DNA from: Labilibacter marinus
Lineage (GTDB): Bacteria; Bacteroidota; Bacteroidia; Bacteroidales; Marinilabiliaceae
Direction: 5' to 3'
Assembly: GCF_001659685.2 (NCBI RefSeq)
Contig: NZ_LXYE02000018.1
Coordinates: 62,001 to 126,000, forward strand
Length of the DNA stretch: 64,000 bases
Both the position numbers and the translations under genes were made by a program. The notes under the pieces were generated by a model, which ran no database searches, was not told where the DNA came from, and saw only the letters and a list, made by a program, of their open reading frames with translations. Numbering within the stretch: the stretch's first letter is position 1; each line of letters opens with the position of its first letter. Below are positions 23,503 through 64,000 of the stretch, one piece after another.

Positions 23503-23510
23503 ATTCTATG

Positions 23511-23607: not shown

Positions 23608-23609
23608 AT

Positions 23610-24587: not shown

Positions 24588-24590
24588 AGC

Positions 24591-25059: not shown

Positions 25060-25088
25060 ACCTCCCAGGTTTTTAAAACCTAGGAGGT
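25060..25088. repeat. Near-perfect 29-bp palindrome
   Basis: The left arm ACCTCCCAGGTTTT (25060-25073) and right arm AAAACCTAGGAGGT (25075-25088) pair with one mismatch around a single T. Neither side has a T-tract, so it looks like a dispersed palindromic repeat rather than a simple terminator. Confidence 0.65.
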
Positions 25089-25130
25089 CTATTACAAAAT
25101 AAGATCTTATTCTGAAAGAATTGATTTTTA

Positions 25131-25179
25131 TGCCTATAACTTTTAATCCTATAAGCATAAAAATTTAAACTTATAGGCA
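25131..25179. repeat. Nested inverted repeat
   Basis: TGCCTATAA (25131-25139) pairs with TTATAGGCA (25171-25179). An inner CCTATAAG (25148-25155) can instead pair with CTTATAGG (25170-25177). The two pairings are mutually exclusive, so the RNA could have alternative folds. Confidence 0.5.
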
Positions 25180-25304
25180 AAGGATTTTGCGGCTTCAACT
25201 ATGGTGCATATTTGACTTCTAAGGAGTCGTCTTGGATAATAAAAACCAAGCTATAAACATGTCACTCCTATGGAGATATTCACCTTATAACTTAAAAATC
25301 TAAA

Positions 25305-26645: not shown

Positions 26646-26696
26646 GAAATGAGATAATAGTCATTAGTGTTTAGTCAATAGCTCTAGTTATTTATA

Positions 26697-27677: not shown

Positions 27678-27687
27678 ATCGTGAGTT

Positions 27688-28890: not shown

Positions 28891-28892
28891 AT

Positions 28893-46885: not shown

Positions 46886-46949
46886 AAATCATTAGTTTTA
46901 ATTAATAACCTGAGTTCGACATAAACCGATACATAATTACATAAGCTAG

Positions 46950-49070: not shown

Positions 49071-49098
49071 ATTCCCCTCCTTAATTAAGGAGGGGAAT
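49071..49098. repeat. Perfect 28-bp palindrome
   Basis: The half-site ATTCCCCTCCTTAA (49071-49084) is followed without spacer by its exact reverse complement (49085-49098). It lies about 100 bases upstream of the SGNH esterase gene and downstream of its inferred promoter, so it would be in the mRNA leader. Confidence 0.8.
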
Positions 49099-49233
49099 TT
49101 ATTAACAGTATTTGTAAGAAAACACTTGATATGCACCTGTACATTTTAGCTATCAAGATCTCCTTACGCCTTCCTATTTTTATTAATATTTTCACTATTA
49201 CATCAAAAAACATTCATTAAATTACATACATCA

Positions 49234-49306
49234 AAAATCTAAATATCAACTCAATATAAATTTGTAATTAAAACTAAATACTAATGATTTCCTGAAATCA
49301 TCATAG
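49234..49306 (-). promoter_or_regulatory. Inferred promoter and operator of the esterase-GH26 unit
   Basis: Read leftward: an inverted repeat whose plus-strand halves are CTAATGATTT (49281-49290) and AAATCATCATAG (49295-49306), then CAAATTTATA (49255-49264), then TAGATTTTTG (49232-49241). The same elements in the same order lie upstream of susC (63741-63824). I infer a common regulator-binding site and promoter, with a leader of roughly 250 bases. Confidence 0.5.
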
Positions 49307-49356
49307 TTGAATACTTCTTAAACCCGCAATATGCATTAGAAAATCTATTACGAAAT

Positions 49357-49450
49357 GAAACTACTTCTAATCAAGAAGTAAACTAACTTGTCTCAACTTA
49401 CCATAGCGGTGCTATGATTCGTCTCAACAAGTCCTTGATTATTTAGTTTC
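49357..49450. repeat. 94-base nested inverted repeat
   Basis: Four successive pairs of arms fold into one long interrupted hairpin: GAAACTA (49357) with TAGTTTC (49444), AATCAAG (49369) with CTTGATT (49434), ACTTGT (49386) with ACAAGT (49427), and CATAGC (49402) with GCTATG (49411). It looks like a structured non-coding repeat or a remnant of a small mobile element. Confidence 0.55.
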
Positions 49451-49565
49451 TGATTATTGCTACGCTCAGCAAAGTTTAATCAAGCTTAAATTTGCCTTCT
49501 CTTATCGCAATAATTGTACTTTCATTCCTCATTACAATATTCTAATACATAATCCGGGTTAAACG

Positions 49566-49592
49566 AAAAAAAGGAGCCCAATGCTGGACTCC
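49566..49592 (-). terminator. Terminator of the CE1-like esterase gene
   Basis: GGAGCCCA (49573-49580) pairs with TGGACTCC (49585-49592) with one mismatch, followed leftward by seven T's. It lies 26 bases after the stop codon at 49618. Confidence 0.75.
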
Positions 49593-49617
49593 TCTAATCA
49601 TACTCAATACTATATAT

Positions 49618-50736
49618 TTACTTAAAAAGAAGCTGAGAAATATCCCGCAAATCTTTTCGCCATACCAACCAAGAGTGACCTCCTGGTCTTTCGCTATATT
49701 TATAAGTTATACCTGCTTCTTTAAAAAGATCAAGTGTTTCCATTCCATTATCATAAGCTAAATCCTCCTTTCCTCCTTGCGTAAAATATAAGAGCTCCAC
49801 AGACTGCTTAAATACCTTAGATACTTTTTTGAGCTGATCCAATCGAGCTTGTTTATCATCAACGGTTCCTCTTTTTGCCTTCCAACTATCACTTAACCAC
49901 CAACCAGAACTTAACACGCCTATGTAACTGAATTCATCAGGATGATTAGTGACCACTTCAAGCGTTTCTAAACCGCCCATTGATAACCCCATAATGGCAC
50001 GGTGCTTAGCATCTGCATAAGTAGGATAATTTTCTTCTATAAATGGAACAAGATCATTCATAAAATCCTTTTTAAACAAAGGAACTCGATCTAAAATATG
50101 CTCTGTTTCAATAGTGCCATTAGGCATTACCACAATCATAGGCTCAATCTTACCTTCGGCCAATAAATTATCGAAGATATTTCCTGCACAACCAATGGTT
50201 GACCAAGCCATATCCGTTCCTCCACCTCCGTGTATCAGGTATAACACAGGCAGTTTTTCTTTTGATTTTTCAAAACCTGCTGGCGTCCAAATGTGCACTC
50301 TACGGGTTTTATTCAAAGTATTTGAAAAGTAATAACGCTGCGACATTGCTCCATGAGGAATATCTTTTCTCATTCCAAAAAAGTCATGCCCATTACCAAC
50401 CAGCAACAATGCTTTTGTTTCTTGTGAAGACGAGGCCATTGGGTCATATACGTTTACACCATCCACCACAAAGTGATAATGATAAGCCCCTTTTTGCACA
50501 TTGCTATAAATCCCTTCCCAAACGCCATCTTTATCTTTCTTGAACTCTACTTTATCCCAAATGCCATCGGCAACTAATTTTACATTGTTTGCCTCTGGGG
50601 CATAAATACGGAACGCCACTTTATTATTTGGCAACACCTCGGTTGACTTAAAATTTTTGTCTGACATGGCTTGCTGAGCTTGCACTAAAACAAACATGCT
50701 CATACAACACATAACTATGAAGATTAGCTTTTTCAT
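49618..50736 (-). CDS. CE1-like esterase with N-terminal E-set (CBM48-like) domain
   Basis: A 372-residue exported alpha/beta hydrolase. The signal peptide ends near AQA (21). The N-terminal immunoglobulin-like E-set/CBM48-type domain (about 30-110) contains VAFRIYAPEANNVKLVAD. The esterase-D type domain (about 130-372) has VLYLIHGGGGTDMAW (oxyanion region), nucleophile S252 in IMGLSMGGLETLEV and His in RPGGHSWLVWRK. This arrangement is known from acetyl- and feruloyl-esterases and from some periplasmic glycan esterases. In this PUL deacetylation of mannan or its oligomers is likely. It has its own terminator and is separated by another terminator from the symporter. Confidence 0.87.
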   Translation of the reverse strand: MKKLIFIVMCCMSMFVLVQAQQAMSDKNFKSTEVLPNNKVAFRIYAPEANNVKLVADGIWDKVEFKKDKDGVWEGIYSNVQKGAYHYHFVVDGVNVYDPMASSSQETKALLLVGNGHDFFGMRKDIPHGAMSQRYYFSNTLNKTRRVHIWTPAGFEKSKEKLPVLYLIHGGGGTDMAWSTIGCAGNIFDNLLAEGKIEPMIVVMPNGTIETEHILDRVPLFKKDFMNDLVPFIEENYPTYADAKHRAIMGLSMGGLETLEVVTNHPDEFSYIGVLSSGWWLSDSWKAKRGTVDDKQARLDQLKKVSKVFKQSVELLYFTQGGKEDLAYDNGMETLDLFKEAGITYKYSERPGGHSWLVWRKDLRDISQLLFK

Positions 50737-50820
50737 GATTTTATTAAAATTAAGGTTTATAGATTGAAGAATGCAACAACACTATCTTTCAAGAATTAGT
50801 TCGTCGCTATTTTGAAAAAC

Positions 50821-50856
50821 AAAAACAGCCTATTCTAAATAAAATAAGCTGTTTTT
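50821..50856 (-). terminator. Terminator of the symporter gene
   Basis: A 14-base stem with one mismatch (AAAAACAGCCTATT at 50821-50834 with AATAAGCTGTTTTT at 50843-50856), followed leftward by T-rich sequence. It ends the long susC-to-symporter transcript. Confidence 0.85.
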
Positions 50857-50879
50857 GAAGTGGTAGTTAATATTTGGTT

Positions 50880-52514
50880 TTATCTAAAAATGAAATACAT
50901 GGTAAAACATGCGATGACTAAAAGCAGTGACAGCACTCTAAAATTCTTGTACCAAACCACCCCTTTAAGCTCTTCTGTTTCTTCGTGCCATATTTTAACC
51001 GTCCAGGTGTTTTGCGCCACCTTTTCTGCATCTGGCAAACGAGTCAATAAGCTCACCAACACATTTACACTCATACTAAAGGCCATTACTACAGGCGCAA
51101 TAATTAAGAAGTGATACGGGATAGTTACATCCATTACATATTTGGCCACCATAATAATTATAGCCACTAATATACCTGATATTAATCCCCAAAGGGCACC
51201 AAATTGATTTGAACGCTTCCAAAATAATCCTAAAAAGAAAGTACCTACAATGGGTGGTGCTAAATACGAAACCACCTCTTGATAATACGATACTAAAGAA
51301 TCGAAACTGGCGATAAATGGCGCCCATACTACGGCAAAAACTAAAACAACAATGGATGTTATTCTACCCACTTTAACTAACTTTTTGCTATCTGCTTTTT
51401 TATCGAAACGCGAGTAAAAGTCCATGGTAAATAAGGTAGATACCGAACTTAAGGTAGCACTTAAGGTAGAGGTTAAAGCGGAAATCATGGCAGCTAATAT
51501 TAAACCAATCAAGCCTACTGGCAATAACTTCACGATTAATCGAGGATAAACCTGATCGGTATTAATTCCAAAACCTTCTTTTAAGGCTCCACCACTAATC
51601 ATATCCGTAGGAAGATTCTCAACTCCAAATAAGTTAATACCTCGCCCGATTAATCCAGGTAAGATGAAAATAAATAGAGTGAATAGATAAAGAAAGCCTA
51701 CAAACAAAACTCCTTTACGACCTTGATCGATGGACTTGGCCGACAATACACGTTGCACCATTACCTGGTTATTGGCCCAAAAATAGAAACCTAAAATGGG
51801 TATTCCGACCCACATACCTAACCAAGGTACGGTAGGATCATCCAAAGAACGAGTAAGCTTTAGCCAAACACCTTCACCAAAGCGATTATACAATTCTTCC
51901 CATCCACCTATTTCATCCAAAGCGAAGAAATAAAGAATACCAGAACCAATGATAAGGATAGTAGCTTGAATCATATCGGCATTAATGGCAGAAGATAAAC
52001 CTCCTACAATAGTGTAAGATCCCGCTACAGCAGCCATAATTACAATAATCCAAAACAAATCTACTTCCGGAAAGATTAATTTAATAATTAGAGCTCCAGT
52101 ATACAGAGTGGCTGCCGCATCAAGGAATACATTACCAAATATTGTTATAAACGAAAAGTAATATCTCGAACGTTTATCGAATCGTTTTTCAAGAAACTCA
52201 GGCATGGTAAAAATGCCCGACTTAATATAGAATGGCAGAAAGAACAACGCGAAAAACACCATTACTAAAACTGAAATCCAGTTATAATTAAAAACAGCTA
52301 TTCCACTAATAAATCCTTCGCCTGAATGTCCCATTAGGGTAGAACTTGACACACTTGCCGCAAAAAGCGACAAACCAACCACAGGCCAAGTCATATTTCT
52401 TCCTGCTAGAAAGTAAGAATCTGAATCCTCACTTTTTCCATTTTTTAAAGCCCACCATACAATTCCAACGATGAAAACCACCAGAATAGTAATATCTATT
52501 GCACCTATATTCAT
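50880..52514 (-). CDS. Sodium:solute symporter (SSS/SGLT family)
   Basis: A 544-residue inner-membrane transporter with about 14 helices. It begins IDITILVVFIVGIVWWALKN and carries SYFLAGRNMTWPVVGLSLFAASVSSS, GGLSSAINADMIQ and LIGLILAAMISALTSTLSATLSSVSTLF, all typical of sugar-type SSS proteins. Placed with a cytoplasmic GH130 phosphorylase, it probably imports mannose, mannobiose or a mannosyl-glucose disaccharide. It is the last gene of the main PUL transcript. The short leader contains a diverged AGTATAAAG repeat (52521-52553). Confidence 0.92.
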   Translation of the reverse strand: MNIGAIDITILVVFIVGIVWWALKNGKSEDSDSYFLAGRNMTWPVVGLSLFAASVSSSTLMGHSGEGFISGIAVFNYNWISVLVMVFFALFFLPFYIKSGIFTMPEFLEKRFDKRSRYYFSFITIFGNVFLDAAATLYTGALIIKLIFPEVDLFWIIVIMAAVAGSYTIVGGLSSAINADMIQATILIIGSGILYFFALDEIGGWEELYNRFGEGVWLKLTRSLDDPTVPWLGMWVGIPILGFYFWANNQVMVQRVLSAKSIDQGRKGVLFVGFLYLFTLFIFILPGLIGRGINLFGVENLPTDMISGGALKEGFGINTDQVYPRLIVKLLPVGLIGLILAAMISALTSTLSATLSSVSTLFTMDFYSRFDKKADSKKLVKVGRITSIVVLVFAVVWAPFIASFDSLVSYYQEVVSYLAPPIVGTFFLGLFWKRSNQFGALWGLISGILVAIIIMVAKYVMDVTIPYHFLIIAPVVMAFSMSVNVLVSLLTRLPDAEKVAQNTWTVKIWHEETEELKGVVWYKNFRVLSLLLVIACFTMYFIFR

Positions 52515-52520
52515 ATTTTT

Positions 52521-52553
52521 AGTATAAAGACAAAAGTATAAAGTATTAAGACC
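52521..52553. repeat. Diverged AGTAT(C/A)AAG repeat before the symporter gene
   Basis: The run starts AGTATAAAGACAAAAGTATA and continues with AAGTATTAAGACC. It resembles the AGTATCAAG repeats in the biotin operon in length, phase and position (between a start codon and the upstream gene) but differs at several bases. Confidence 0.4.
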
Positions 52554-52595
52554 TAGAAATCATCCTAAAAAATAAGACTTTACAGTTCTATTAAT

Positions 52596-54113
52596 TTAAT
52601 AATCAAGTGATGTAAGAAGAATAAAACTATTGGCTGGCACATCCAGTTTAAGTCCGTTTTTTGCTTTAATATCCTTCTCTGTAGGAACAGGAAAACCATT
52701 CTCATCAACAGCTCTTTCTCCATCCATATAAACAAACTTCTTTAAAGGCTTTGAGCTTTGCACGCCAAGTGATATCGATTGTGCCATACCCGAATTATTT
52801 ACTAAAGCAACAGTAACATCATCCTTGTATACGCCAGCTGTTAAACGCAGTCCTTCAATACCTGTGGTATCTGTTTCTACAATTTCGCTTCCTGTAGGAA
52901 AATAGCGACATAGCAAAGACCATGAATAAAACCAAGGTCTCATATTCTCATCCTCGGGATTATTGCATAACTCTGCACCTAAGCTATTCCACATTCCCCA
53001 ACGCTTCAATTCGTTTTTGTTACCCAAATCGCCACAGGTATGCATCGCGTCATCCAAAGCCCAAGCCGCAGCACCTGAGTAACCTGCATTCATACTTTGA
53101 ATAACAGCATCGGCCATATCTACACCATAGCTATATTTAAAAACATCAAACTGACTATCTTCACAAGCATACGGATCTTGAGCTGCTTTTTCCTGATTCT
53201 CTTTTCCATTGCGACTAAAACCCAACTCGCCAAAAATGATTTGTTTGTTGGTATGCTTCATTAATTGAGCAATGTCGCCATGGTATTTTTTAAAACCTCC
53301 GCTTCGCACTAATTCATAATCTGTATAATCGTGCACTTCGTAAATACCCACAATATCATCTAGCTGTTTCGCTGTTTCTTCTACCCAACCAGCACCTGTA
53401 TAGGTTGATCTAGGATTATCGTAACGCGTTACGGCATCTGGTCCTGCAACAGTAATATATTTATCCAAGCCTCTTTCTTTAAGTGCCTCAGCCAGTAACT
53501 TTACTCCTTCGCTCCATTCAACAAAATCACCTTTCGTACTTGCCCAATCTCCATTAGGCTCATTGACTAGGTTGTAATATTTTAAACAGGTATAACCACG
53601 GGTATTAATTAAATAATCTAAATACTCCACCACTATTTTTATCCATTTAGGATCGTTGGCTCCCGTAAATTTATCACCATGACCAGCATCTGTATCGTGC
53701 ATTTTGTATGGCGTTCCCCATTCTCCAAACAACACTTCAATATTGTTCTTCTGTGCGTAACCTAATATCTTTTCTAAAGCTTTAATTTCGGGCGTATTAA
53801 AATCAAGGATAGGCTCATCGTTTTTATCAAACCCAACTAAATACCTCCAATTGGCCTGATCTAGCACCCTAAACATTTTAGGTTGCATATAATCCAAACG
53901 CTGAAAATTCATTTCCCATTTTTCATCGGTCATCAGCTTTCCCCAATCGGCATTTTCCGTATCGGCATGAGGGTAAGCCGACCACTGAACACCATTACCA
54001 ATAAAATTATTGCTGATAGTTTTATCACGATGAATCTTAATCATATCCTCATCTACTTGTTGACAAGAGATCAAAGTCACTGCTATAATAAATATTGAAA
54101 GAATGTGTCTCAT
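52596..54113 (-). CDS. Lipid-anchored clan GH-A-like glycoside hydrolase, paralogue A
   Basis: A 505-residue lipoprotein (lipobox LISC, Cys at 17). It has a short N-terminal beta strand block (FIGNGVQWSAYPHAD), a TIM barrel with acid/base E185 in YNLVNEPNGDW and nucleophile E296 in IIFGELGFSRNG, and a C-terminal beta-sandwich (about 420-505). The pattern resembles GH5/GH30/GH39-type enzymes, but I cannot place it in a family. It is a full-length paralogue of the protein at 56387. I start at the ATG at 54111-54113; an in-frame TTG 24 bases upstream is less likely. A beta-mannosidase or mannobiohydrolase role is plausible. Confidence 0.8.
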   Translation of the reverse strand: MRHILSIFIIAVTLISCQQVDEDMIKIHRDKTISNNFIGNGVQWSAYPHADTENADWGKLMTDEKWEMNFQRLDYMQPKMFRVLDQANWRYLVGFDKNDEPILDFNTPEIKALEKILGYAQKNNIEVLFGEWGTPYKMHDTDAGHGDKFTGANDPKWIKIVVEYLDYLINTRGYTCLKYYNLVNEPNGDWASTKGDFVEWSEGVKLLAEALKERGLDKYITVAGPDAVTRYDNPRSTYTGAGWVEETAKQLDDIVGIYEVHDYTDYELVRSGGFKKYHGDIAQLMKHTNKQIIFGELGFSRNGKENQEKAAQDPYACEDSQFDVFKYSYGVDMADAVIQSMNAGYSGAAAWALDDAMHTCGDLGNKNELKRWGMWNSLGAELCNNPEDENMRPWFYSWSLLCRYFPTGSEIVETDTTGIEGLRLTAGVYKDDVTVALVNNSGMAQSISLGVQSSKPLKKFVYMDGERAVDENGFPVPTEKDIKAKNGLKLDVPANSFILLTSLDY

Positions 54114-54194
54114 CTTTGTTTTATTTTTCCGATGCAAAGATCTTTAGCTAGTCTTCCAACTGTATGATGCATCGGTATTATTAATTAATACATT

Positions 54195-54214
54195 CCCTGG
54201 GTTGAAACCCAGGG
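54195..54214. repeat. CCCTGGGTT palindrome, REP-like
   Basis: CCCTGGGTT (54195-54203) and AACCCAGGG (54206-54214) are a perfect 9-base inverted repeat around GA, followed by GCTATTTATGTTCAACCCC. The GGGTTGAAACCC core is a common dispersed palindrome in environmental Bacteroidota and some other phyla. There is no T-tract, so it is not a terminator. Confidence 0.65.
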
Positions 54215-54294
54215 CTATTTATGTTCAACCCCAACAGGATTGTATGTGATATGCACTATTCCCTTTTTCTTTCTCCGTTCTCCTTGCTCCAACA

Positions 54295-55137
54295 CTAATA
54301 TCCTAAAATAGAAAGCATTTCCACTGCATATCTTCTTCCTAGTTTTCTAACTCCCTCAGAGTTAAAGTGTACATTATCTTTGCTAACTGCACATCCTTTT
54401 GAAGAAATAACACTTGCAGTTGGCACAACAACTGGCAGTTGATTAATAATATGGTTCATGCTTGAACACTTTCCACCCACATCAGCATTAACCACCTCGC
54501 CTGCCAACAATGGTACATCCTCAGCATTCAAGCCAAGATCTTTTAGCATATTTTCATAAACAATTTTAACATACGACGGCCAATTCTCGTCCCTCTCATT
54601 GGTTTCTCCCTGATGCAAAAGAATTCCCTTTATCACACCTTCTTTTTGGGCTTTTTTAGCCATTTCCATTAATCGCTCATATGGATTTCCTCCATAAGCA
54701 TTCACCTTTTCCTTAAACCAAGGCTCTGGATAGGTATCGGTATAATCCTGATAAATAGCTTTATCGAACAATCGGATATCACTGCCTCCTATGGCTACAT
54801 TCATTACACCCACTTCAATACTATCTGGAAGGATGGCAACCATTGTTTTTCCGAAATAATCGGCAGGCGATAAACCATGCCAGCAACTGCTCAATGGAGG
54901 AACTGCCGTATACCATTCTCCATATTTTCTATCCAAATCGGGACAATCCATTGGCGACATCATTTTTAAGCGAACGTCAGCCGTTTTATCTTGCCCTTCT
55001 ATTTTTGCAGAACCTTCCATATTAGATTGCCCGAAACATAAATAGATATGAAAATTGGGATTTTGAGAATGAGCACTTGTACTGATAGAAAACAAAGTCA
55101 GCGCAACTAAAACAAAATTATTTATATACTTTTTCAT
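54295..55137 (-). CDS. SGNH carbohydrate acetylesterase (single domain)
   Basis: A 280-residue secreted SGNH hydrolase. The signal peptide ends near SAHS (24). Nucleophile S38 is in YLCFGQSNMEGSA; VAIGGSDIRLFDK, LLHQGETNERDENWPSY and the Asp-His block DNVHFNSEGVRKLGRRYA follow. It is closely related to the catalytic domain of the T9SS-exported protein at 46999 but has no accessory or sorting domain, so it probably works in the periplasm on imported acetylated oligomers. The start is the ATG at 55135-55137, which gives a proper signal peptide; the longer frame begins with an implausible MLLYDLSNLES. Confidence 0.88.
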   Translation of the reverse strand: MKKYINNFVLVALTLFSISTSAHSQNPNFHIYLCFGQSNMEGSAKIEGQDKTADVRLKMMSPMDCPDLDRKYGEWYTAVPPLSSCWHGLSPADYFGKTMVAILPDSIEVGVMNVAIGGSDIRLFDKAIYQDYTDTYPEPWFKEKVNAYGGNPYERLMEMAKKAQKEGVIKGILLHQGETNERDENWPSYVKIVYENMLKDLGLNAEDVPLLAGEVVNADVGGKCSSMNHIINQLPVVVPTASVISSKGCAVSKDNVHFNSEGVRKLGRRYAVEMLSILGY

Positions 55138-55197
55138 CGATTCTAAATTACTTAAATCGTACAACAGCACGTGAAATGCCGTTGTACAATTACTAGT

Positions 55198-56214
55198 CTA
55201 TTTATGCTTTTTTACAAAATCTAATATTTCAGATACACTACAAGTGGCTAAACCAACGTATTTATCGGCTCCTCCATAATAAACATATAAAGTATCGTCT
55301 ACAATTACATTACCGGTAGGAAATACACACCCCTTGTAGAATCCTTCAATTTCGTAATCGTGCTCAGGCTCCATAATCCAATCGCTGGCACGCGCAATCA
55401 CTTTGGTTGGATCTTCTAAATCTAACAAAGCAACTCCTACTCGATAATATCCTTGGCCGCCATTTTCAACACCATGGTAAATCACTAACCAACCATCATC
55501 CGTTTTTAACGGAGGCGTTGATCCGCCAACTTTTTCTTCCCACGTTCCGTCAATTCCACCAATAATCATCGTACTTGGCTCATTCCAAACCATTAAATCA
55601 TCCGAAAAACGAATCCAAATAGCTGGTTTATCTACGCCATACTCATCACCAATCCATTGTTTTGGACGATGCAACATAGCATATTTACCATTGATTTTTT
55701 CTGGAAAAAGAATCACATCACGATCATCTAAGTTACTTTCGGTAACACGACCTAAACGTCGCCAATTTTTAAAATCCTTGGTTACAGCCAAACCTGAGTT
55801 TGCAATATTATCCTTCATTACTGCAGGTGAATATTCATTCGTCTCTGGTAATAAAATAACATCATGCTCAAATTTCCAATACTGACCTGGATAGTGAGGA
55901 CGATAGGCATAAGTCACATAGTACTCATCACCAAATTTTACGATACGAGGATCTTCAACCCCACCTTGATCTGGTCCATCTTCACTTGGCCCAAAGGTTG
56001 GTTCATCAGAAACTCGTTCAAAATTTACTCCATCATTACTTACTGCCGTACCCATGCGGATGTAATGCTGCTCATCGTCTCCAGCAGCACGATATAACAT
56101 CGTAAACTTCCCATCTTCGTACCATACCCCTGGGTTACAAACCACAAGATTCTCCCAACAATTAGTTGCGTGAGGTTTTAAAATAGGGTTATTTTCGTGT
56201 TTCGTTAATTTCAT
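55198..56214 (-). CDS. GH130 beta-mannoside phosphorylase
   Basis: A 338-residue cytoplasmic five-bladed beta-propeller. NPGVWYEDGKFTMLYRAAG, QGGVEDPRIVKFGDEYYVTY (with the catalytic-site Asp), WEEKVGGSTPPLKTDDGWLVIYHG and YYGGADKYVGLA are all GH130 motifs. It has no signal peptide, so it acts after import, using phosphate to split beta-1,4-mannosyl-glucose or mannooligosaccharides into mannose 1-phosphate and a shorter sugar. The subfamily cannot be fixed by eye, and no mannobiose 2-epimerase gene accompanies it. Confidence 0.93.
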   Translation of the reverse strand: MKLTKHENNPILKPHATNCWENLVVCNPGVWYEDGKFTMLYRAAGDDEQHYIRMGTAVSNDGVNFERVSDEPTFGPSEDGPDQGGVEDPRIVKFGDEYYVTYAYRPHYPGQYWKFEHDVILLPETNEYSPAVMKDNIANSGLAVTKDFKNWRRLGRVTESNLDDRDVILFPEKINGKYAMLHRPKQWIGDEYGVDKPAIWIRFSDDLMVWNEPSTMIIGGIDGTWEEKVGGSTPPLKTDDGWLVIYHGVENGGQGYYRVGVALLDLEDPTKVIARASDWIMEPEHDYEIEGFYKGCVFPTGNVIVDDTLYVYYGGADKYVGLATCSVSEILDFVKKHK

Positions 56215-56386
56215 CTGTCTAAGTTTGTTTTGTTTTTAAGTCTAACATGTAGCTCATACACCCTATTTATTTAAAATAGAGCTGCCCATACAAGCTACTT
56301 TAAGACATAAAAATTAGTTTATGACAGACATCAAACATGTAATAGACGCCTGCCATGTAAATCATTTATTTATAATCCGGTATTTA

Positions 56387-57904
56387 TTATTGCATGTTGG
56401 TAAATAAGATGAATGACTCACCCTCTAATGTAATATCTACACCTTTACTAAAATCGAAAGAAGCATTCGTTTCTGCTGGTTTTGCAAAACCATTTTCGTC
56501 AACCGCCCCAACAAAGGTTCCATCAGCATTAGACTTATAAGTGTATTTATCCATGGTTAAACCACCTATAGATTCGGATTTTAATACAACTGGATAAGTT
56601 GAATAATGAGAATTCACAAGCGCGATAGTATACTTACCATCCTTAGCTCCCATAATAGCACGAACGCCTTTTTTATTAGGCAACTTAATATCGTAAATAT
56701 CGCAGCCAGCTGGGAAATAACGACATAACAGCGAAACAGGATAAAAGAATGGACGAATCTCCTCATCTGCAGGATCGCTACAATGCTCCTCGCCAAGAAT
56801 ATTCCAGAACCCCCAACGCTTCATTTGATCTACACTATAGTCATCTCCATCCGGACTCACATACATGGCATCGTCCATGTCCCAAACCAAGGCTCCTGAA
56901 AATCCAGCTCGCATTGATTGCATGATAGCATCCGCCATATCAACTCCGTAAAAAGCTTCGTAAATCATCATGTTAGAATCTTCACCCGCATACGGATCTG
57001 CCTCAATAGCTGCCTCATTCTTTTCTTTTAATCCAGCATCAACCTCGGTATATTTAAAACCTATCTCACCTAAAACAATTCTTTTACCTTCTGGCGTAGC
57101 ATCGCGATAAGCCTGCAACATAGAAGTATAATCGCCACTACGAACAATCAATTGTTTTGGATAAACATGAATATCATAAAGACCTATTCCATCATCTAAA
57201 TCGTTGGCAGCTTTTGTTATCCATGTAGTTTCGTTGGTATTATCAAAAATAGCCACATCAGGTCCCATTAGCTTAATCGCTGATAGTTCATATTTCTCCA
57301 TCTCCTCTAAATAGGCTACTTGCACATCTCTCCATACATCATAACTTCCTTGCGTAGAAGACCAGCTGCCATTAGGTTCGTTAATGATATTTACCGTTTT
57401 TATAACAGAATATCCTTTTTCGTTCACCAAATGATTTAAGAACTTAACCGAGTTAGCAATCCATTCCATATCGATATCGCCAATATTTCCGGTATGATGA
57501 TGCCCCCACTCGCCATAGGTAATTTCAATATTTCGGCTTTGTGCATATTCTAACATTTTAAGCAATTTTCCAGAAATACTTGTTTCGTCGTATTTACCAT
57601 CATATATGTAAGCATTGTTAGCATTAGTAAGGATGCGTAAAAACGGTGGACGCATATAATCAATACGCTCAAATAAAGTATTCCAGTCTGCATCACTTAA
57701 AGTTTCTTGTCCAATCCAATCCCCCACCGAGTCATAACCTCCCCATTGGGCTCCATTACCAACAAAGTCCGTTGAAATTACATCAGAAGTAATGATAATT
57801 TCGCGGTTTTTAATTACACTATCAGGTGTTCCCTCATCCTTTTCGCATGCCAAAACGGACAGTAGCATGGCCATTATTCCTATTATAATAAGTCCTGTTT
57901 TCAT
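56387..57904 (-). CDS. Lipid-anchored clan GH-A-like glycoside hydrolase, paralogue B
   Basis: A 505-residue lipoprotein (lipobox LLSVLAC, Cys at 20). It shows FVGNGAQWGGYDSVGDW, then RPPFLRILTNANNAYI. Acid/base E176 is in VNIINEPNGSW and nucleophile E280 in RIVLGEIGFKYTE. The DIHVYPKQLIVRSGDY segment, the MQSMRAGFSGALVWDMDDAM segment and a C-terminal beta-sandwich follow. It aligns along its whole length with the 52596 protein, yet many residues differ, suggesting an old duplication and different specificity. It is probably a surface or periplasmic exo- or endo-mannoside hydrolase. I cannot assign a CAZy family. Confidence 0.8.
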   Translation of the reverse strand: MKTGLIIIGIMAMLLSVLACEKDEGTPDSVIKNREIIITSDVISTDFVGNGAQWGGYDSVGDWIGQETLSDADWNTLFERIDYMRPPFLRILTNANNAYIYDGKYDETSISGKLLKMLEYAQSRNIEITYGEWGHHHTGNIGDIDMEWIANSVKFLNHLVNEKGYSVIKTVNIINEPNGSWSSTQGSYDVWRDVQVAYLEEMEKYELSAIKLMGPDVAIFDNTNETTWITKAANDLDDGIGLYDIHVYPKQLIVRSGDYTSMLQAYRDATPEGKRIVLGEIGFKYTEVDAGLKEKNEAAIEADPYAGEDSNMMIYEAFYGVDMADAIMQSMRAGFSGALVWDMDDAMYVSPDGDDYSVDQMKRWGFWNILGEEHCSDPADEEIRPFFYPVSLLCRYFPAGCDIYDIKLPNKKGVRAIMGAKDGKYTIALVNSHYSTYPVVLKSESIGGLTMDKYTYKSNADGTFVGAVDENGFAKPAETNASFDFSKGVDITLEGESFILFTNMQ

Positions 57905-57989
57905 TATCTAAAATTTTATTTTTCTGAAAAAACATTCACTCAGCAAAACTTCTGTTTCATGCTTTTTCATTTATTGTGAATTTGAATGA

Positions 57990-58019
57990 GTTACTGGAAG
58001 ATAGATATCCCCCAGTAAC
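57990..58019 (-). other. Hairpin without T-tract between the surface lipoprotein and GH-A genes
   Basis: GTTACTGG (57990-57997) and CCAGTAAC (58012-58019) are a perfect 8-base inverted repeat. No T-tract follows in the reading direction. It could protect the 3' end of a processed susCD-lipoprotein mRNA. Confidence 0.5.
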
Positions 58020-58030
58020 ATTTCCCAATA

Positions 58031-58948
58031 TTATTTTTCTAAATGGTAGTATGATCCAATACAAGAAACTAAATGACTCCACGTGGAATAATAGTTGTCC
58101 CAATCAATAAGACTTAAATCTCTCATGGTTGGTTCCAGATTTACTTTAACCGTTGTTTCATCAATTATCTCAATTACCCCAGTAGCTGATTCACTACCCG
58201 ACTCCATTACCAATCGTACAATTAGTGCTCCGTTGCCATCTTCATCGATATAATATTTTCCTTTACCTCCTTGAAGCTGACCAAACTGCGGAGCCCAGTC
58301 TTTTACCTCATGAATGCCATCATCAAAAACATAATTCGCAAACTCATTATCTGCTCCTGCAGTTCGAGTGTAGGTTCCGTAAGGCTTTCCATCTTCAATT
58401 CCTTCAACTGCTCCAAATGTGATTACATCATCTAATCCAGTTGCGGTTAACGGCATATCATTTACAAGATCAACATCGTAACCTGAATTACCCCAACCAT
58501 TGTAATCATCCCAAGAAAAACGATGTACAGCAATCCTCCATTCTCCCATAACAGGATTAGAAAATTCTTGTGCATAAACGGTCCATTCTTTGGTTTTTCC
58601 ACTTTCAGACGTGACAGTTATGGTTGTTTTTTTCTCCTCATTATCAAAATTCAAGGTAGAACCTTCTGCCACATCAGCAGATGCATTCCACGAAAGGCCT
58701 ATATATTCAATCTCCACTGATGAGATATTTGGCTCAACATCGGTATTTAAAACTACGGTTACTGTTGACTCTTCGGTATTGCTAACAATTGCTGCCGAAC
58801 CAATTTGATTCTTTAGCACCAAAGCACTAATGCCACGCTCATGATTCCATGAAGAACCATCTTCGTAAATTTTACTTAAAGGGTCTTCCGTACAAGAGGC
58901 CATAAAAACCGCTAGTACCAATCCGTATATATATAATAACTTATTCAT
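58031..58948 (-). CDS. Surface lipoprotein, probable glycan-binding protein of the PUL
   Basis: A 305-residue lipoprotein (lipobox VFMASC, Cys at 19) placed directly after susD, the usual place of SusE/SGBP glycan-binding lipoproteins. Residues 38-130 form an immunoglobulin-like domain (ISALVLKNQIGSAAIV ending GKTKEWTVYAQEF) of the type that projects binding modules from the membrane. Residues 135-300 are a second domain, with LDDVITFGAVEGIEDGKPYG and many tryptophans, shared with the N-terminal region of the T9SS esterase at 46999. I infer mannan binding. The gap to susD is ten bases. Confidence 0.8.
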   Translation of the reverse strand: MNKLLYIYGLVLAVFMASCTEDPLSKIYEDGSSWNHERGISALVLKNQIGSAAIVSNTEESTVTVVLNTDVEPNISSVEIEYIGLSWNASADVAEGSTLNFDNEEKKTTITVTSESGKTKEWTVYAQEFSNPVMGEWRIAVHRFSWDDYNGWGNSGYDVDLVNDMPLTATGLDDVITFGAVEGIEDGKPYGTYTRTAGADNEFANYVFDDGIHEVKDWAPQFGQLQGGKGKYYIDEDGNGALIVRLVMESGSESATGVIEIIDETTVKVNLEPTMRDLSLIDWDNYYSTWSHLVSCIGSYYHLEK

Positions 58949-58958
58949 TGCTATCGTT

Positions 58959-60461
58959 TTAATTTATGTTAGGATTCAAATCTTTCTCGCGCTGTGGGAT
59001 AGGATAAAAAGCAAGCTGCTCAGGAGACAATCCCGCTGCTTGTGTGACATAAGTCTGCACCATATTTTTTCTTCTTAAATCCCAAAGGCGATCACCTTCA
59101 AAAGCGAACTCACGCTGGCGCTCCTCAATAATTAAGTTTCTAAAATCATCTTGGCTTAAACCAGATAAATCCGTCAACTCGCTTACCCCTGCTCTTCTTC
59201 TAATTTCGTTGTAATACGGCAAGCTTTCTGCGTTTGCCATGGCCTCGGCATACACCAATTGAATATCTGAATAACGAATTAAGTATGGACGCGTACTTGT
59301 TTTATCCCCTTCAAATTCTGTATCGATATACTTACGTGTAAAAGGATAGATAATAGTCCCGTCAGCAACAGTACCTGTGGAATTATTATCCTCATCAAAT
59401 ATTTCAGTTACCAAGAGCTCTGTTACTCGCTTATCTGTAGCTTCATATTTAGATACCAACTCATCTGTAGTTTGAAATACACTCCAGCCATCATGCGTTG
59501 GTGAATATGATTCATCTGTATTTTTAAGATAAACAGTACCTCCTCCAATCCAAGGAATAAAATACTTAGATAACTTAGAGTAATCACCTTCTTGTGTACC
59601 TGAACGGTCCATTGATAAAATGAAGATATGCTCTTTACCTTCATTAGCGTTTACATCGTATATATTCTGCAAATTAGCATCATGACCATATTCACTTTGA
59701 GCAGTTAAAACTAACTCAGCATACTCAGCTGCTTTTGCATAAAGGTTTTCAGCACTTTCTGTTAAAGCATCATATTTAGGCACACCACTCTCTTTGGCTG
59801 AAGCTGCGAATAAATAAATTTTAGCTAACAAAGCTTGTGCTGCTATTTTATCAGCACGTCCTGCAACTCTATTCACCAGCAAATAATCATTCGCCTTTTC
59901 AAGATCCTCAATCATAAAAGCGTACATCTCTTGAAAACCCTCAGGCAAACTTGCATTAGTTTCCTCAATTTCATCGACTAACGATTTCTGCAATGGAGCA
60001 ATACCAAATGCCTTCACTATATTAAAGTGATTCCAAGCTCTTAAAAAATAAGCCTCACCAAGCAGACGCTTTTCATCAACCTCGTTAAAACCTCTTCCTT
60101 CTACATTTTCGATAACGGCATTAGCTCTGTTAATTGCGATATATGCACAACGATAATATTGCGATAAAAGCTCGTTTTGAGATGTAACTTCCCAATTGGT
60201 AAAGGCCGTTGCATCAGCTCCTTCATCCGACTTAACATTACAGTTATCTGTGGCCAACTCTGCAAAATAGAATGTAACTGGGGCATAACTTACCAAGGTT
60301 AAAGCATCGTAGGCATACAGCAACGAAGCCTCGGCATCCTCAACTGTTTTATAAAAGTTTTTATCAGAGTAAAACCCCTCTGGCTCTACAGTCAGGCTCT
60401 CGCATGAGTACACCCCTGCTGCAATGGCCAAACTGAATAATATTTTATATAATGTTTTCAT
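58959..60461 (-). CDS. SusD-like starch-binding outer-membrane lipoprotein
   Basis: A 500-residue SusD/RagB family lipoprotein (lipobox GVYSC, Cys at 19). Features are the early SDKNFYKTVEDAEASLLYAYDAL, TPR-like helices (RLLGEAYFLRAWNHFNIVKAFG, KIAAQALLAKIYLFAASA) and the C-terminal SusD domain (RYSDIQLVYAEAMANAE, NEIRRRAGV, IIEERQREFAFEGDRLWDLRR, FYPIPQREKDLNPN). It caps the SusC barrel and delivers mannan oligosaccharides. The gap to susC is 36 bases. Confidence 0.96.
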   Translation of the reverse strand: MKTLYKILFSLAIAAGVYSCESLTVEPEGFYSDKNFYKTVEDAEASLLYAYDALTLVSYAPVTFYFAELATDNCNVKSDEGADATAFTNWEVTSQNELLSQYYRCAYIAINRANAVIENVEGRGFNEVDEKRLLGEAYFLRAWNHFNIVKAFGIAPLQKSLVDEIEETNASLPEGFQEMYAFMIEDLEKANDYLLVNRVAGRADKIAAQALLAKIYLFAASAKESGVPKYDALTESAENLYAKAAEYAELVLTAQSEYGHDANLQNIYDVNANEGKEHIFILSMDRSGTQEGDYSKLSKYFIPWIGGGTVYLKNTDESYSPTHDGWSVFQTTDELVSKYEATDKRVTELLVTEIFDEDNNSTGTVADGTIIYPFTRKYIDTEFEGDKTSTRPYLIRYSDIQLVYAEAMANAESLPYYNEIRRRAGVSELTDLSGLSQDDFRNLIIEERQREFAFEGDRLWDLRRKNMVQTYVTQAAGLSPEQLAFYPIPQREKDLNPNIN

Positions 60462-60497
60462 TTTAAATCCTTTTTATTAAACCATTGTATTTATGAA

Positions 60498-63400
60498 CTA
60501 GAAAGTTAACTCTACACCCAATGTGTATTTTCTTAACTTAGGATATCCTCCCCAATAAATTCCATCATTACCCACTTCAGGATCGTAGCCTTCAAAATTG
60601 CTAATGGTAAATAAGTTGGTTGCATTCACGGTTACACGAGCTCTTTTAAACCACGATAGGCCAATGTTTTTAATATTATACATTAAGGAAACATTTTGTA
60701 GACGTACAAAACTTCCATCCTGAACATACCAATCAGACAAGTAATAATTTCTTCCGTCGCGTAAGCTTGGGTAATCGTTGGTTGGGTTATCCTGAGTCCA
60801 ACGCAATGGCGTATTACTTGGCTCGCTAAAGGCTTTAGTATTTAAAACATCCTGACCAAAACTACCATTAAAGAACATGGCTAAATCCAAGTTTTTATAA
60901 CTCAATTGTAGATTCAAACTCGCTAAAAAGTCTGGATTTGGATCACCAATGATGGTACGATCGTTTTCATCAATTACACCATCCTCATTTATATCCACAT
61001 ACTTAAACTCTCCTGGCTGTGCTAACTTTCCGTCTAACCCAGCAGCTAATCCTTCTTGCTCACTTTGAATGATTCCATCCACCTTGTGACCGTAAAATAC
61101 ATTTACCGCTTCACCAATTGCTAAAATATTAGGGATAGCTCTAAAAGCCTCAACATTGCTTCCGTTAAACTCATATAACATTCCAGTATTAGGATCACTA
61201 CTTAAACCAAATGCTAGCTCATCACCTAGTGCAACTACTTCGTTTTTGTTTCTAGAAACAATTAAAGACCCAGATAATCTCCAGTCTTGCGTATCAATTA
61301 CATCTCCTTCAATAGTTAACTCAATACCTTGATTTTTGATCTCCCCACTATTTACATACATTAAATCGTATGCTGCAGATGGTGACAACCAACGCTCACG
61401 AAGTAAATCGTTGGTATATTTGTTATAGTAATCGGCAATAACACGTAGCCTTCTATTGAAGAAAGCTAAATCGACTCCTAAATTCAACTGACGTGTAGTT
61501 TCCCACTTTAACTCAGGATTTGGAATACCACTCCATAGTTTTTTTCCTGTTTGACTATCCCATCGAGAAACATAACCTGGTCCGATAGCTGTTTGCCATC
61601 TACCATTTACATAGTATTGATCCTGACCATATCTACTATTAATTAAGTAAGCTCCAATAGGTTCTTGGTTACCCGAGATACCGTAACTGGCACGTAATTT
61701 CAATTCATCAAACACATTTAAATTTTTGATAAAATCTTCGTGGTGCATTTTCCAACCTAGGGCACCAGATGGGAACATAGCCCACTTGTTATTGGGTCCG
61801 AACTTGGAAGAAGCATCTGCACGCATGGTAAGCGTTGCCATATACTTTTCGGCCATTACATAGTTTAATCTTCCAAACCATGAATACATCACCTCTTCTG
61901 ATAATCCGTTTGAAACACGTTGTTTCTCTGGATCACCACCCGAAAGGTTTCCACTACCTAGTGATTCATTTAAGAAATCGTATGCACGTAACGAAGAGCT
62001 AGGATCTTTTTTATAACGATATGAAAAACCTCCCATCGCATTTACTTTGTGTGTATCATTATACACTTTATCAAAAGTTAAGATAGACTCTGAAATAATT
62101 TCGTTGGTATCATAATTATCAATACCTGCCGAACCATTATTAAATGTTCCGTCTTCGGTATATACTTTTGGATTATAGTACTCCGACAAAGAACGACCGT
62201 ACTTATAATTTAACTGCGATTTAAATTTTAAGCTCGATAGAATTTGAGCCTCCGCATAAGCCGCTCCTAAAAAATCAAGAAACTCAGTAGTGCTTGATCT
62301 ATTTTCAGTTAATGCAATAGGGTGACTATAATCCTGTGTTCCTACTAAGTAATAATCTTTTGTAGGATCGTTGTCTTCATAAACTGGAAAAATAGGGTTA
62401 CGCCAGTAGGCTAGTCCACCATTGTTATTTCTATTTCCTTTGGTGAAATAGACATTAGTACCAATGGTTAATTTTTCGTGTGCTTTATGCGTAACATTTA
62501 AGTTTACATTCAGCTTTTTGTAGTCATCTTCTATATAAATACCCTGATCGGTAAAATAAGTAGTACTTAAACTAAACTGTGTTTTTTCAGTTTGACTACG
62601 CAATGCAATATTGGTATTATTAGAAACTGGATTACGAAAAACTACATCATCCCAACGCGTATTATATGGCCAAGAACCATCCTCTAGTTCTTTAACAGAA
62701 GGGTAATAAACGCCATTAGGATCATTAGCTCCAACATATAGAGGAACAAAACCACCATTAATACGACTCTCGTTACTTAAACCAGCCATCAACACAGGGT
62801 CTCTCCATAAGTTTAATTCAGAAGTAAACTCAGAAATTGTGTTTTGCTGAGAAACCGTTACCTCCATCTTACCTTGCGCACCTTTTTTGGTAGTAATCAT
62901 GATAACACCGTTGGCACCACGAGAACCATAAATAGCAGTAGATGAACCATCTTTTAAAATCTCCATAGATGCAATATCATTGGGAGAAATCTGACTTAAA
63001 TTACCGGCATCTCCAATAGGAAAACCATCTACAACCACCAAAGGGTCGCTTCCACTTCGGTACGAACTACCTCCTCTAATGCGAATAGTAGCTCCAGCTC
63101 CCGGACTATCAGAAGATGCTGTTACCTGAACTCCTGCACTTTGCCCCTGCAATAAACCATCAATTGAACCTGCTGGCTTCATCGGTAATGCCTCCATTTT
63201 AACTGAAGAAACAGCTCCCGTTAAATCACTCTTCTGCACCGAACCGTAACCAATAACTATGACCTCGTCCAGCCCAAGCATCTCATCTTCCAACACTACA
63301 TTAAGTGTAGTTCTAACTCCCACAACCATTTCCTGCTGCACCATACCGATAGAAGAATAAACAACTGTTGCTTCCGCAGAACTTAAACTAATATTATACT

Positions 63401-63590
63401 CTCCATCAATATTTGTGATTGTTCCTGTTGTTGTTCCTTTTTCATAAACATTTACGCCAGGAAGCGGCATTCCCGAAACATCTGAGACTACTCCTTGCAA
63501 TTTTATCTGCTGAGCAAAAGCAAAAGCAGATATCGAGCAAAGGGTAAGTACCAAGAATGCACGTTTAAATATTCCAAACCTATTTTTCAT
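60498..63590 (-). CDS. SusC/RagA-family TonB-linked outer-membrane transporter
   Basis: A 1030-residue outer-membrane importer. The signal peptide ends near AFAQ (27). A carboxypeptidase-regulatory-like domain (about 30-110, KLQGVVSDVSGMPLPGVNVYEKGTTTGTITNIDG) is followed by the plug with DEVIVIGYGSVQKSDLTGAVSSV, SSYRSGSDPLVVVDGFPIGD and the SusC motif GSSTAIYGSRGANGVIMITTKKG. The barrel ends YPKLRKYTLGVELTF. There is no STN domain, so no anti-sigma signalling is expected. It heads the PUL transcript and lies 351 bases from the divergent regulator gene. Confidence 0.97.
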   Translation of the reverse strand: MKNRFGIFKRAFLVLTLCSISAFAFAQQIKLQGVVSDVSGMPLPGVNVYEKGTTTGTITNIDGEYNISLSSAEATVVYSSIGMVQQEMVVGVRTTLNVVLEDEMLGLDEVIVIGYGSVQKSDLTGAVSSVKMEALPMKPAGSIDGLLQGQSAGVQVTASSDSPGAGATIRIRGGSSYRSGSDPLVVVDGFPIGDAGNLSQISPNDIASMEILKDGSSTAIYGSRGANGVIMITTKKGAQGKMEVTVSQQNTISEFTSELNLWRDPVLMAGLSNESRINGGFVPLYVGANDPNGVYYPSVKELEDGSWPYNTRWDDVVFRNPVSNNTNIALRSQTEKTQFSLSTTYFTDQGIYIEDDYKKLNVNLNVTHKAHEKLTIGTNVYFTKGNRNNNGGLAYWRNPIFPVYEDNDPTKDYYLVGTQDYSHPIALTENRSSTTEFLDFLGAAYAEAQILSSLKFKSQLNYKYGRSLSEYYNPKVYTEDGTFNNGSAGIDNYDTNEIISESILTFDKVYNDTHKVNAMGGFSYRYKKDPSSSLRAYDFLNESLGSGNLSGGDPEKQRVSNGLSEEVMYSWFGRLNYVMAEKYMATLTMRADASSKFGPNNKWAMFPSGALGWKMHHEDFIKNLNVFDELKLRASYGISGNQEPIGAYLINSRYGQDQYYVNGRWQTAIGPGYVSRWDSQTGKKLWSGIPNPELKWETTRQLNLGVDLAFFNRRLRVIADYYNKYTNDLLRERWLSPSAAYDLMYVNSGEIKNQGIELTIEGDVIDTQDWRLSGSLIVSRNKNEVVALGDELAFGLSSDPNTGMLYEFNGSNVEAFRAIPNILAIGEAVNVFYGHKVDGIIQSEQEGLAAGLDGKLAQPGEFKYVDINEDGVIDENDRTIIGDPNPDFLASLNLQLSYKNLDLAMFFNGSFGQDVLNTKAFSEPSNTPLRWTQDNPTNDYPSLRDGRNYYLSDWYVQDGSFVRLQNVSLMYNIKNIGLSWFKRARVTVNATNLFTISNFEGYDPEVGNDGIYWGGYPKLRKYTLGVELTF

Positions 63591-63740
63591 GCGTGTAAAT
63601 TTTAATTTTCATTGGTCATATGGAACTCGTCAATTTTAAATACTCTTCTGCATCAAGAACATTTTATCAAGACTCAATTCATTCCACTAATTTTACATTA
63701 ACTAACCTGTTTTAATATTTTTTAATGATTAATCACTTTG

Positions 63741-63824
63741 CAAATCTATATGGAATTGAAGAAATATAATTTGCTTTTAATGTCATTAACTAATGATTTG
63801 ATGAATTCATAAAATCATTATTAG
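63741..63824 (-). promoter_or_regulatory. Inferred promoter and operator of susC
   Basis: Read leftward: an inverted repeat whose plus-strand halves are CTAATGATTT (63790-63799) and AAATCATTATTAG (63812-63824), then CAAATTATA (63765-63773), then the -7 box TAGATTTG (63741-63748). The spacing between the -7 box and the near half-site is 47 bases, against 45 at the matching block upstream of the esterase-GH26 unit. Confidence 0.55.
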
Positions 63825-63911
63825 CACATATCCCAACATTCAAAAGCCTTTAACACTCTTATTCTGATATTTACAATATACAATTAAATAATGCTATTAT
63901 GAATATTTAGT

Positions 63912-63919
63912 TATATTTG
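63912..63919 (+). promoter_or_regulatory. Candidate -7 box of the PUL regulator gene
   Basis: TATATTTG fits TAnnTTTG and lies 22 bases before the ATG at 63942. No clear -33 box is visible. Confidence 0.45.
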
Positions 63920-63941: not shown

Positions 63942-64000
63942 ATGCAAAAACGTATCATTAGAGAAATTGCTCCATTATCAGAAGATGACTTTTTTGTGAT
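63942..64000 (+). CDS. Start of a probable AraC-family transcriptional regulator (partial)
   Basis: Only the first 19 codons are inside the window: MQKRIIREIAPLSEDDFFVI. This opening is what I recall from Bacteroidota AraC regulators with an N-terminal cupin sensor domain, and the position divergent from susC fits the regulator of the PUL. The start is supported by AATAAGG just upstream and a -7 box. With so little sequence the family call is tentative, and the diagnostic HTH lies outside. Confidence 0.5.
   Translation, partial: MQKRIIREIAPLSEDDFFV

Follow-up and report, generated by a model that had tools for sequence, protein, structure and literature searches.

Two promoters of a mannan-digestion locus in Labilibacter marinus, one before susC and one 14 kb away before a secreted esterase-GH26 unit, carry the same block. 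Both copies are very probably the binding sites and promoters of an AraC-type activator encoded from position 63942, with tandem half-sites 21 bp apart and a fixed 58-bp phasing. Coordinates refer to the window, the whole stretch of 64,000 nucleotides that was analysed. The order within the site was TTCAnnAAATCATTA, a weaker half-site 21 bp further on and a sigma-A -7 box 58 bp from the site start. TAnnTTTG is the -7 sigma-A box of Bacteroidota (PMC9723704). The susC block was located at 63741..63806 on the minus strand and read CTAATAATGATTTTATGAATTCATCAAATCATTAG...GCAAATTATA...TAGATTTG on the coding strand. It comprised half-site 1 TTCATCAAATCATTAG (63805-63790), half-site 2 ACATTAAAAGCAAATT (about 63784-63769) and the -7 box TAGATTTG (63748-63741). 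The esterase-GH26 block (49232..49297, minus strand) read CTATGATGATTTCAGGAAATCATTAG...ACAAATTTATA...TAGATTTTTG on the coding strand, with half-site 1 TTCAGGAAATCATTAG (49296-49281), half-site 2 AGTTTTAATTACAAAT (about 49275-49260) and a -7 box read as GATTTTTG (49239-49232). All elements that the preliminary description had reported before the two genes were found in place. It had also given distances of 47 and 45 bases for the two promoters. With GATTTTTG as the esterase -7 box, both offsets are 58 and this discrepancy therefore disappears; the alternative box of the earlier reading, TAGATTTT (49241-49234), gives an offset of 56. Both promoters showed a good -7 box, and a recognisable -33 element was absent from both.

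All genes of the two target units are encoded on the minus strand. Unit 1 begins with susC, coding for a TonB-dependent importer (60498..63590; TIGR04056, 791 bits). Downstream are susD (58959..60461), a GH5-like glycosidase (56387..57904; PF00150, slightly over the cut-off), a GH130 mannoside phosphorylase (55198..56214; PF04041, 3.8e-58), a SASA-family acetylesterase (54295..55170), another GH5-like glycosidase (52596..54137), an SSF-family sugar symporter (50880..52514) and a feruloyl-esterase-like esterase with a CBM48-like N-terminus (49618..50736), the final gene ahead of the esterase block. Unit 2 starts with a secreted SASA acetylesterase (46999..48972) and contains a secreted GH26 mannanase (44867..46885), both with a T9SS tail. 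Based on the GH130 mannoside phosphorylase, the locus was assigned to beta-mannan use, and the components of a beta-mannan PUL (susCD, GH26, GH5, GH130 and symporter) were all present.

A fixed-spacing matrix trained only on the susC promoters of six other genomes was applied to 470,000 positions. The susC block of L. marinus reached 32.3 bits and its esterase block 25.1 bits, the top two new matches, and the highest background position scored 11.1 bits. The eight top new matches were all situated at predicted targets, namely these two blocks, the second operon of genome G052, four GH5 mannanase promoters and the second susC of genome G001. Over all 58 core matches in the 6.03-Mb L. marinus genome, a matrix trained without the L. 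marinus sequences ranked the susC and esterase blocks first and second. A genome-wide model that included both blocks found just these two, with 35.6 and 35.8 bits, followed by a match of 16.9 bits. The similarity of the blocks was far above chance, and the genome scan proposed earlier as a refuting check gave no better unrelated matches. Genome-wide tests consisted of pattern and model searches only. A negative-control core pattern, four bases shorter, matched 55 times in the genome and not once in the locus. A gapped covariance model built without the L. marinus sequences (R2) gave the susC block 13.7 bits and did not recover the esterase block; it was too weak, probably because gaps were allowed and the unconserved spacer was modelled. 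The inverted-repeat pattern had a third exact match at C10:46432, but this is within the coding region of a methionine-synthase-like protein and was attributed to chance. C57:47609, with 12.8-16 bits, had no sugar-use gene downstream and was also taken as chance. AAATCATTAGT at 46886-46896 was rejected as well; it is found at the start codon of GH26, faces away from that gene and has a half-site spacing one base short.

A weak copy of the operator precedes a GH5 mannanase beyond the window (66273-66208). With the matrix trained on the other genomes it scored 9.6 bits, under two background matches, and it was called a target because the same spacing was found in G001, G004, G052 and G068. The GH5 mannanase and the regulator gene probably also belong to the predicted regulon. 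The earlier restriction to two operons was given up in view of this weaker copy and a half-site at the regulator's own promoter.

The DNA sequence shows directly that the element is shared, how it is spaced and conserved, and that it is linked to a regulator clade. The offset was exactly 58 in seven of seven orthologous susC promoters. It was also exactly 58 bp in 31 of 41 whole-genome matches from 25 genomes with related regulators, for which the spacing was left free. In 77 further loci, where operator matches were scored without the -7 box, TAnnTTTG occurred at 58 in 22 of 24 cases, the others being at 57 (n=1) and 90 (n=1). The bare pattern was slightly enriched at 58 (6 vs mean 3) in 395 genomes of the class, which were sampled regardless of the regulator and most of which probably lack it; the short motif alone is therefore not specific. 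Other genera (G052, G068) carried the element at both promoter kinds, importer and secreted enzymes. New genome-wide matches in G068 were upstream of a second susC and of a secreted protein related to the L. marinus esterase. The same element was present in Bacteroides cellulosilyticus and Cellulophaga. The two L. marinus blocks are identical in 36 of 66 bases, as might also result from a recent duplication of promoter DNA with no regulatory meaning. The chance of this is negligible. The esterase block shares 46 of 66 bases with the second promoter of G052, whose offset is also 58, so both block types already existed before the genera diverged, and a fixed spacing of the predicted element across the phylum needs selection.

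Among shifts of 16-22, 21 was the best direct-repeat shift (mean column correlation 0.40), with a modest permutation p of 0.03, and conservation of the proximal half-site was weak. The preliminary description had instead proposed an inverted repeat with a variable inner spacer, which would be bound by a symmetric dimer on CTAATGATTT/AAATCATTAG, the flexible centre being 4 or 12 bp long. The palindromic look of the susC block is caused by an opposing half-site copy, S1' ATTCATAAAATCATTATT (63805..63822, plus strand), and the esterase block holds a weaker opposing copy, TTTCCTGAAATCATCATA (49288..49305, plus strand). At susC, the longest opposing match extended over 9 bp (p 0.005) and at the esterase promoter over 7 bp (p 0.03), each from 2000 shuffles, and the susC opposing site scored 21.8 bits versus 18.7 bits for the forward one. 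However, both copies were absent in relatives and an opposing arm of at least 7 bp was found in just three of 65 operators elsewhere. Even the G052 second promoter, to which the esterase block is most closely related, has no such arm, and the fixed spacing belongs to the directional half-site. A symmetric operator is thus very improbable. The conserved unit is a directional tandem site of predicted AraC type with a 21-bp repeat and fixed phasing, not an inverted repeat, and the opposing arm of this predicted operator is a feature of the L. marinus lineage.

The candidate regulator gene starts at 63942 on the plus strand (63942..64000 in the window), continues to the window-equivalent position 64802 (L005:1943-2803) and encodes 286 aa. 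The protein has a C-terminal double helix-turn-helix domain, with the DNA-binding domain at residues 201-278 (PF12833, 7.4e-25; PF00165, 8.3e-20). By sequence, its top solved relative was the AraC DNA-binding domain 2k9s, and alignments to the AraC and RhaS models were near full-length with scores below the cut-offs. A cupin-like HFHPE motif was recognised by eye at the N-terminus; a cupin domain was not matched in the Pfam search. The periplasmic sensor, kinase and receiver domains of hybrid two-component systems were not matched either, leaving the AraC DNA-binding domain alone. On the regulator tree, the presence of the operator required 7 changes versus 28 expected, in a test using matrices trained in part on loci also tested. 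The predicted operator is thus associated with a single clade of AraC regulators, to which the 63942 gene belongs. Together with its recurrence at both promoter kinds elsewhere, this supports the earlier assignment of one regulator, most likely that at 63942, to both operons. A hybrid two-component AraC-type regulator or a paralogous AraC protein could act on the site instead. The beta-mannan locus of Muricauda has both AraC-type and hybrid two-component regulators (PMC9860051), and a paralogue with 44% identity is encoded in L. marinus at C1:321618. Such an exchange is highly improbable, since the operator goes with the clade of the 63942 regulator. It was absent in 22 of 23 members of the paralogue clade, which is likewise found next to susC genes, and the paralogue's own region (C1:321618) held no match.

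In the preferred reading, a beta-mannan locus is controlled by an AraC-type activator of the ordinary kind, for which we infer binding, activation, ligand and autorepression as follows. A regulator dimer would occupy the two tandem half-sites on one face of the DNA, as 21 bp correspond to two helical turns. With the start site placed from the -7 box, the distal half-site TTCAnnAAATCATTA would extend from about -69 to -54 and the weaker proximal one from about -48 to -33, at the position of the -33 element. This is a class II geometry, with the proximal half-site at the -33/-35 region and fixed promoter phasing. The bound activator would adjoin RNA polymerase at the -33 position, which would explain why the 58-bp phasing is fixed. 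Manno-oligosaccharide is the presumed inducer. The induced regulator would switch on the importer operon from susC onward and the secreted esterase-GH26 operon, and, with weaker support, the GH5 mannanase next door.

A second half-site, S2 ATTCATAATAGCATTATT (63887..63904, minus strand), was found 7-8 nt upstream of the -7 box TATATTTG (63912..63919, plus strand) that belongs to the regulator gene, and in six of seven orthologous loci. An inverted half-site was present in regulator promoters, with a preference for distances of 28-30 or 8-9 nt. S2 is a probable autoregulatory site which, lying across the regulator's own promoter, would limit regulator synthesis. The activator model may be extended by an AraC-like switch, in which the uninduced regulator on S1' (63805-63822) or S2 (63887-63904) loops or occludes the promoters. 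The gain of opposing sites at both L. marinus promoters, the conserved half-site at the regulator promoter and an S1-S2 separation of 98-99 bp in four genomes, with 106 and 110 in two others, would be in line with it. However, relatives lack the opposing arms, and helical phasing of S1 and S2 was not supported by the distances of 98, 106 and 110. We consider this extension unlikely.

With a rigid element phased at 58 bp, regulon membership should be readable from the sequence. The element suggests common control of the importer, the secreted T9SS enzymes and a separate GH5 mannanase by one regulator, and it would assign targets without a neighbouring regulator, such as the second susC operon of G001. 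On balance, we favour the element as a mark of a small, ancient and predictable regulon in mannan loci across Bacteroidota. Somewhat probable, too, is an ancient, phylum-wide beta-mannan switch with a single clade of one-component AraC regulators, in which the 58 bp were kept from Bacteroides/Prevotella to marine Flavobacteriia and even targets without an adjacent regulator are predictable.

Escherichia coli AraC acts at araI1-araI2, direct half-sites about 21 bp apart. The system described here resembles it in the AraC-type DNA-binding domain, the tandem half-sites 21 bp apart with the proximal one at the -35 region and the divergent, here predictedly self-regulated regulator gene. It differs in the Bacteroidota promoter (-7 TAnnTTTG), the half-site sequence and the several targets within a polysaccharide locus. 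The operator had earlier been regarded as one of undescribed form, but besides AraC, hybrid two-component regulators of Bacteroides are predicted to use direct repeats of about 21 bp; their predicted direct-repeat operators have a mean of 21 bp, and that of HTCS_Man consists of two 16-bp sites with a 5-bp spacer (PMC3878776). In the literature searched, no description was found of an operator of one-component AraC regulators in beta-mannan loci. HTCS_Man shares the AraC-type DNA-binding domain and predicted direct-repeat operators ahead of polysaccharide-utilization genes, and the HTCS_Man proteins serve alpha-mannan (PMC3878776). The 63942 product, in contrast, has 286 aa and is of the one-component type; it lacks a kinase, a receiver and a membrane sensor. 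The beta-mannan locus of Muricauda sp. MAR_2010_75 is induced by beta-mannans and has SusC/D, GH26, GH5, GH130, a symporter and an AraC-type regulator in common with ours (PMC9860051). It differs in organisation and in a hybrid two-component regulator, and an operator description was not found in the text consulted. CgrA (ZGAL_3159), the carrageenan regulator of Zobellia with a positive role demonstrated by knockout, is likewise an AraC-family activator of a polysaccharide regulon in marine Bacteroidota, for carrageenan instead of mannan (PMC5698469). XylRA of a marine Vibrio, whose operator binding was demonstrated by shift assay, also combines an AraC-type DNA-binding domain with AT-rich direct-repeat operators before several units of a locus, there for xylan, but it has a LacI-type sensor, belongs to Gammaproteobacteria and responds to xylose as ligand (PMC12125979).

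The 6.03 Mb genome of Labilibacter marinus carried a beta-mannan utilization locus within a window that spans 62001-126000 of contig C10; in window coordinates, it ran on the minus strand from 63590 down to 44867. From 63590, it encoded SusC, SusD, two GH5-like proteins, GH130, acetylesterases, an SSF symporter and a feruloyl-esterase-like protein, and toward 44867 it ended with a T9SS-secreted SASA esterase followed by a T9SS-secreted GH26. An AraC-family regulator of 286 aa started at 63942. Downstream of the regulator gene and convergent with it, a putative GH5-like mannanase was located at window-equivalent positions 64886-66181; it had no match in the Pfam search and was labelled by eye from its sequence. 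The regulator locus matched that of G001, a genome of the same genus; the nearest named relative was Saccharicrinis aurantiacus. An ECF sigma factor, a FecR anti-sigma factor and a TonB-dependent receptor (L005:4414-8799) adjoined the locus and are a separate regulatory system.

The preliminary description had reported one operator-promoter block before both susC (63741-63824) and the esterase-GH26 unit (49234-49306), with an inverted repeat as the operator unit. Both blocks were confirmed in the sequence (63806-63741 and 49297-49232 in the revised delimitation), and a model containing both placed only these two above background in the genome, with 35.8 and 35.6 bits and the next match at 16.9 bits. 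Regulator orthologues with 61-85% identity were present in six other genomes, and the element was re-segmented by aligning the regulator-susC intergenic regions of the orthologous loci. Conserved were ATTCAtnAAATCATnA (half-site 1), a more loosely conserved A-rich stretch 21 bp further along with CAAA at its end (half-site 2), and the -7 box TAnnTTTG. The offset of TAnnTTTG, counted from the element's first base, was exactly 58 in 7/7 susC promoters, while the distance from this box to the start codon varied from 36 to 150. The L. marinus block owed its palindromic look to a distal arm that is an additional copy of the half-site on the opposite strand. Such an arm was rare elsewhere: an opposing match of at least 7 bp occurred in 3 of 65 other operators, whereas the L. 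marinus susC and esterase blocks had matches of 9 and 7 bp, respectively.

A fixed-spacing matrix was built from the susC promoters of the six other genomes, with the unconserved spacer masked, and 470,000 positions were scored. The best new matches were the L. marinus susC (32.3 bits) and esterase (25.1 bits) promoters and a second operon of G052, an uncultured Carboxylicivirga (24.6 bits). GH5 of G004 (20.5 bits), GH5 of G001 (17.0 bits), a second susC of G001 (15.0 bits) and GH5 of G068 (12.9 bits) and G052 (12.8 bits) followed; background started at 11.1 bits. The L. marinus GH5 site remained under this background with 9.6 bits; it had the offset of 58 and lay 26 nt before the start codon, comparable to G004 (27 nt) and G052 (26 nt). 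Among all 58 core matches with 58-bp spacing in the L. marinus genome, the matrix ranked susC first, esterase second and GH5 fourth. A covariance model with gaps, built from these six sequences, performed poorly: it gave the L. marinus susC 13.7 bits and missed the esterase block. In G001 (Saccharicrinis aurantiacus; L036/L037, joined coordinates 17628-29001), a second copy of the mannan locus followed straight after the first, and no regulator was seen between the copies. The operator was present at the second-copy susC, where the closest -7-like box lay at offset 62.

In the conserved register, the esterase element was TTTCAGGAAATCATTAG and its -7 box, at offset 58, GATTTTTG. The box proposed previously, TAGATTTT, overlaps it and lies at offset 56. 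In G052, 17 kb separated the susC promoter from a second, related one, which preceded a secreted protein and had GATATTTG at offset 58; 46/66 of its bases agreed with the L. marinus esterase block. In G068, a related promoter preceded a homologue of this secreted protein. The two-promoter arrangement is therefore probably older than the split of these genera. The leader of about 250 nt from esterase promoter to start codon contained a perfect 24-bp palindrome, TCCCCTCCTTAATTAAGGAGGGGA (49073-49096), which had a single genomic copy and could fold within the leader RNA. At the GH26 start codon, AAATCATTAGT (46886-46896) followed TTCAT, directed away from GH26 and with the half-site spacing one base short.

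Eighty loci with regulator relatives were drawn from 84,980 species genomes. Over their 2.7 million positions, the matrix found 92 sites above 11 bits, almost all of which lay immediately upstream of susC, the symporter, GH5 or another gene of the locus. The operator was present in Bacteroides, Prevotella/Xylanibacter, Dysgonomonas, Muribaculaceae, Cellulophaga, Zobellia, Gramella and Labilibaculum. Contig L130 (JAAZLO010000109.1), labelled Bacillota, had a regulator and operator almost identical to the ones in Seramator (Bacteroidota) and was probably mis-binned. When the operator was scored without the -7 box and near-duplicates were removed, TAnnTTTG lay at offset 58 in 22 of 52 sites and once each at 57 and 90, with no other offset up to 92. 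When 25 genomes with the regulator were searched in full and any of 31 spacings was allowed, 31 of 41 matches fell at exactly 58; the reversed pattern, used as a control, gave 14 matches summed over all spacings. In 395 genomes of the class sampled irrespective of the regulator, the bare pattern was only slightly enriched at 58 (6 versus a mean of 3), so the motif is informative chiefly in genomes that have the regulator.

Operator presence was scored in the 700 nt upstream of the regulator on a tree of 108 regulators. Its state changed 7 times, compared with 28 with shuffled labels, and 0/500 shuffles reached so low a count. The operator was present in every scored member of the L. marinus clade (22/22) and absent in 22/23 members of a paralogous clade (42-47% identity) that often also adjoins susC. 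As the matrices were partly trained on the same loci, this result is support rather than an independent test that the operator tracks the clade of the regulator at 63942. A paralogous AraC regulator (44%) adjoined another susC-like gene at C1:321618 of L. marinus (L148:7589-8467). The operator described here is missing from the paralogue's clade, which is found widely across the family; the paralogue therefore probably has an operator of its own. A half-site was also located at the promoter of the regulator at 63942: in close relatives, 7-8 nt separated it from the -7 box downstream (6/7 loci); in the wider set, it sharply favoured 28-30 nt (40 occurrences in 76 loci, near-identical genomes included). 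The distance from the inverted half-site TGAA to this box peaked at 28-30 in most lineages and at 8-9 in the L. marinus clade. These peaks are about 21 bp apart, as though the operator halves had swapped places.

The consulted portions of work on the Muricauda beta-mannan locus (PMC9860051), the Bacteroides regulon reconstruction (PMC3878776) and hemicellulase regulation (PMC10766802) did not describe the operator; an earlier description may exist. We infer binding, ligand, activation and autorepression of the regulator. With the -7 box placed at -12 to -5 (PMC9723704), half-site 1 would occupy -69 to -54 and half-site 2 would occupy -48 to -33, a geometry in which an AraC-type activator would touch RNA polymerase at the -33 region. 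Such contact would explain the lack of drift in the 58-bp spacing. Support for a direct repeat at 21 bp, the best shift, was modest (p 0.03). For Bacteroides hybrid two-component regulators, which have their DNA-binding domain in common with the regulator at 63942, direct repeats averaging 21 bp are predicted (PMC3878776).
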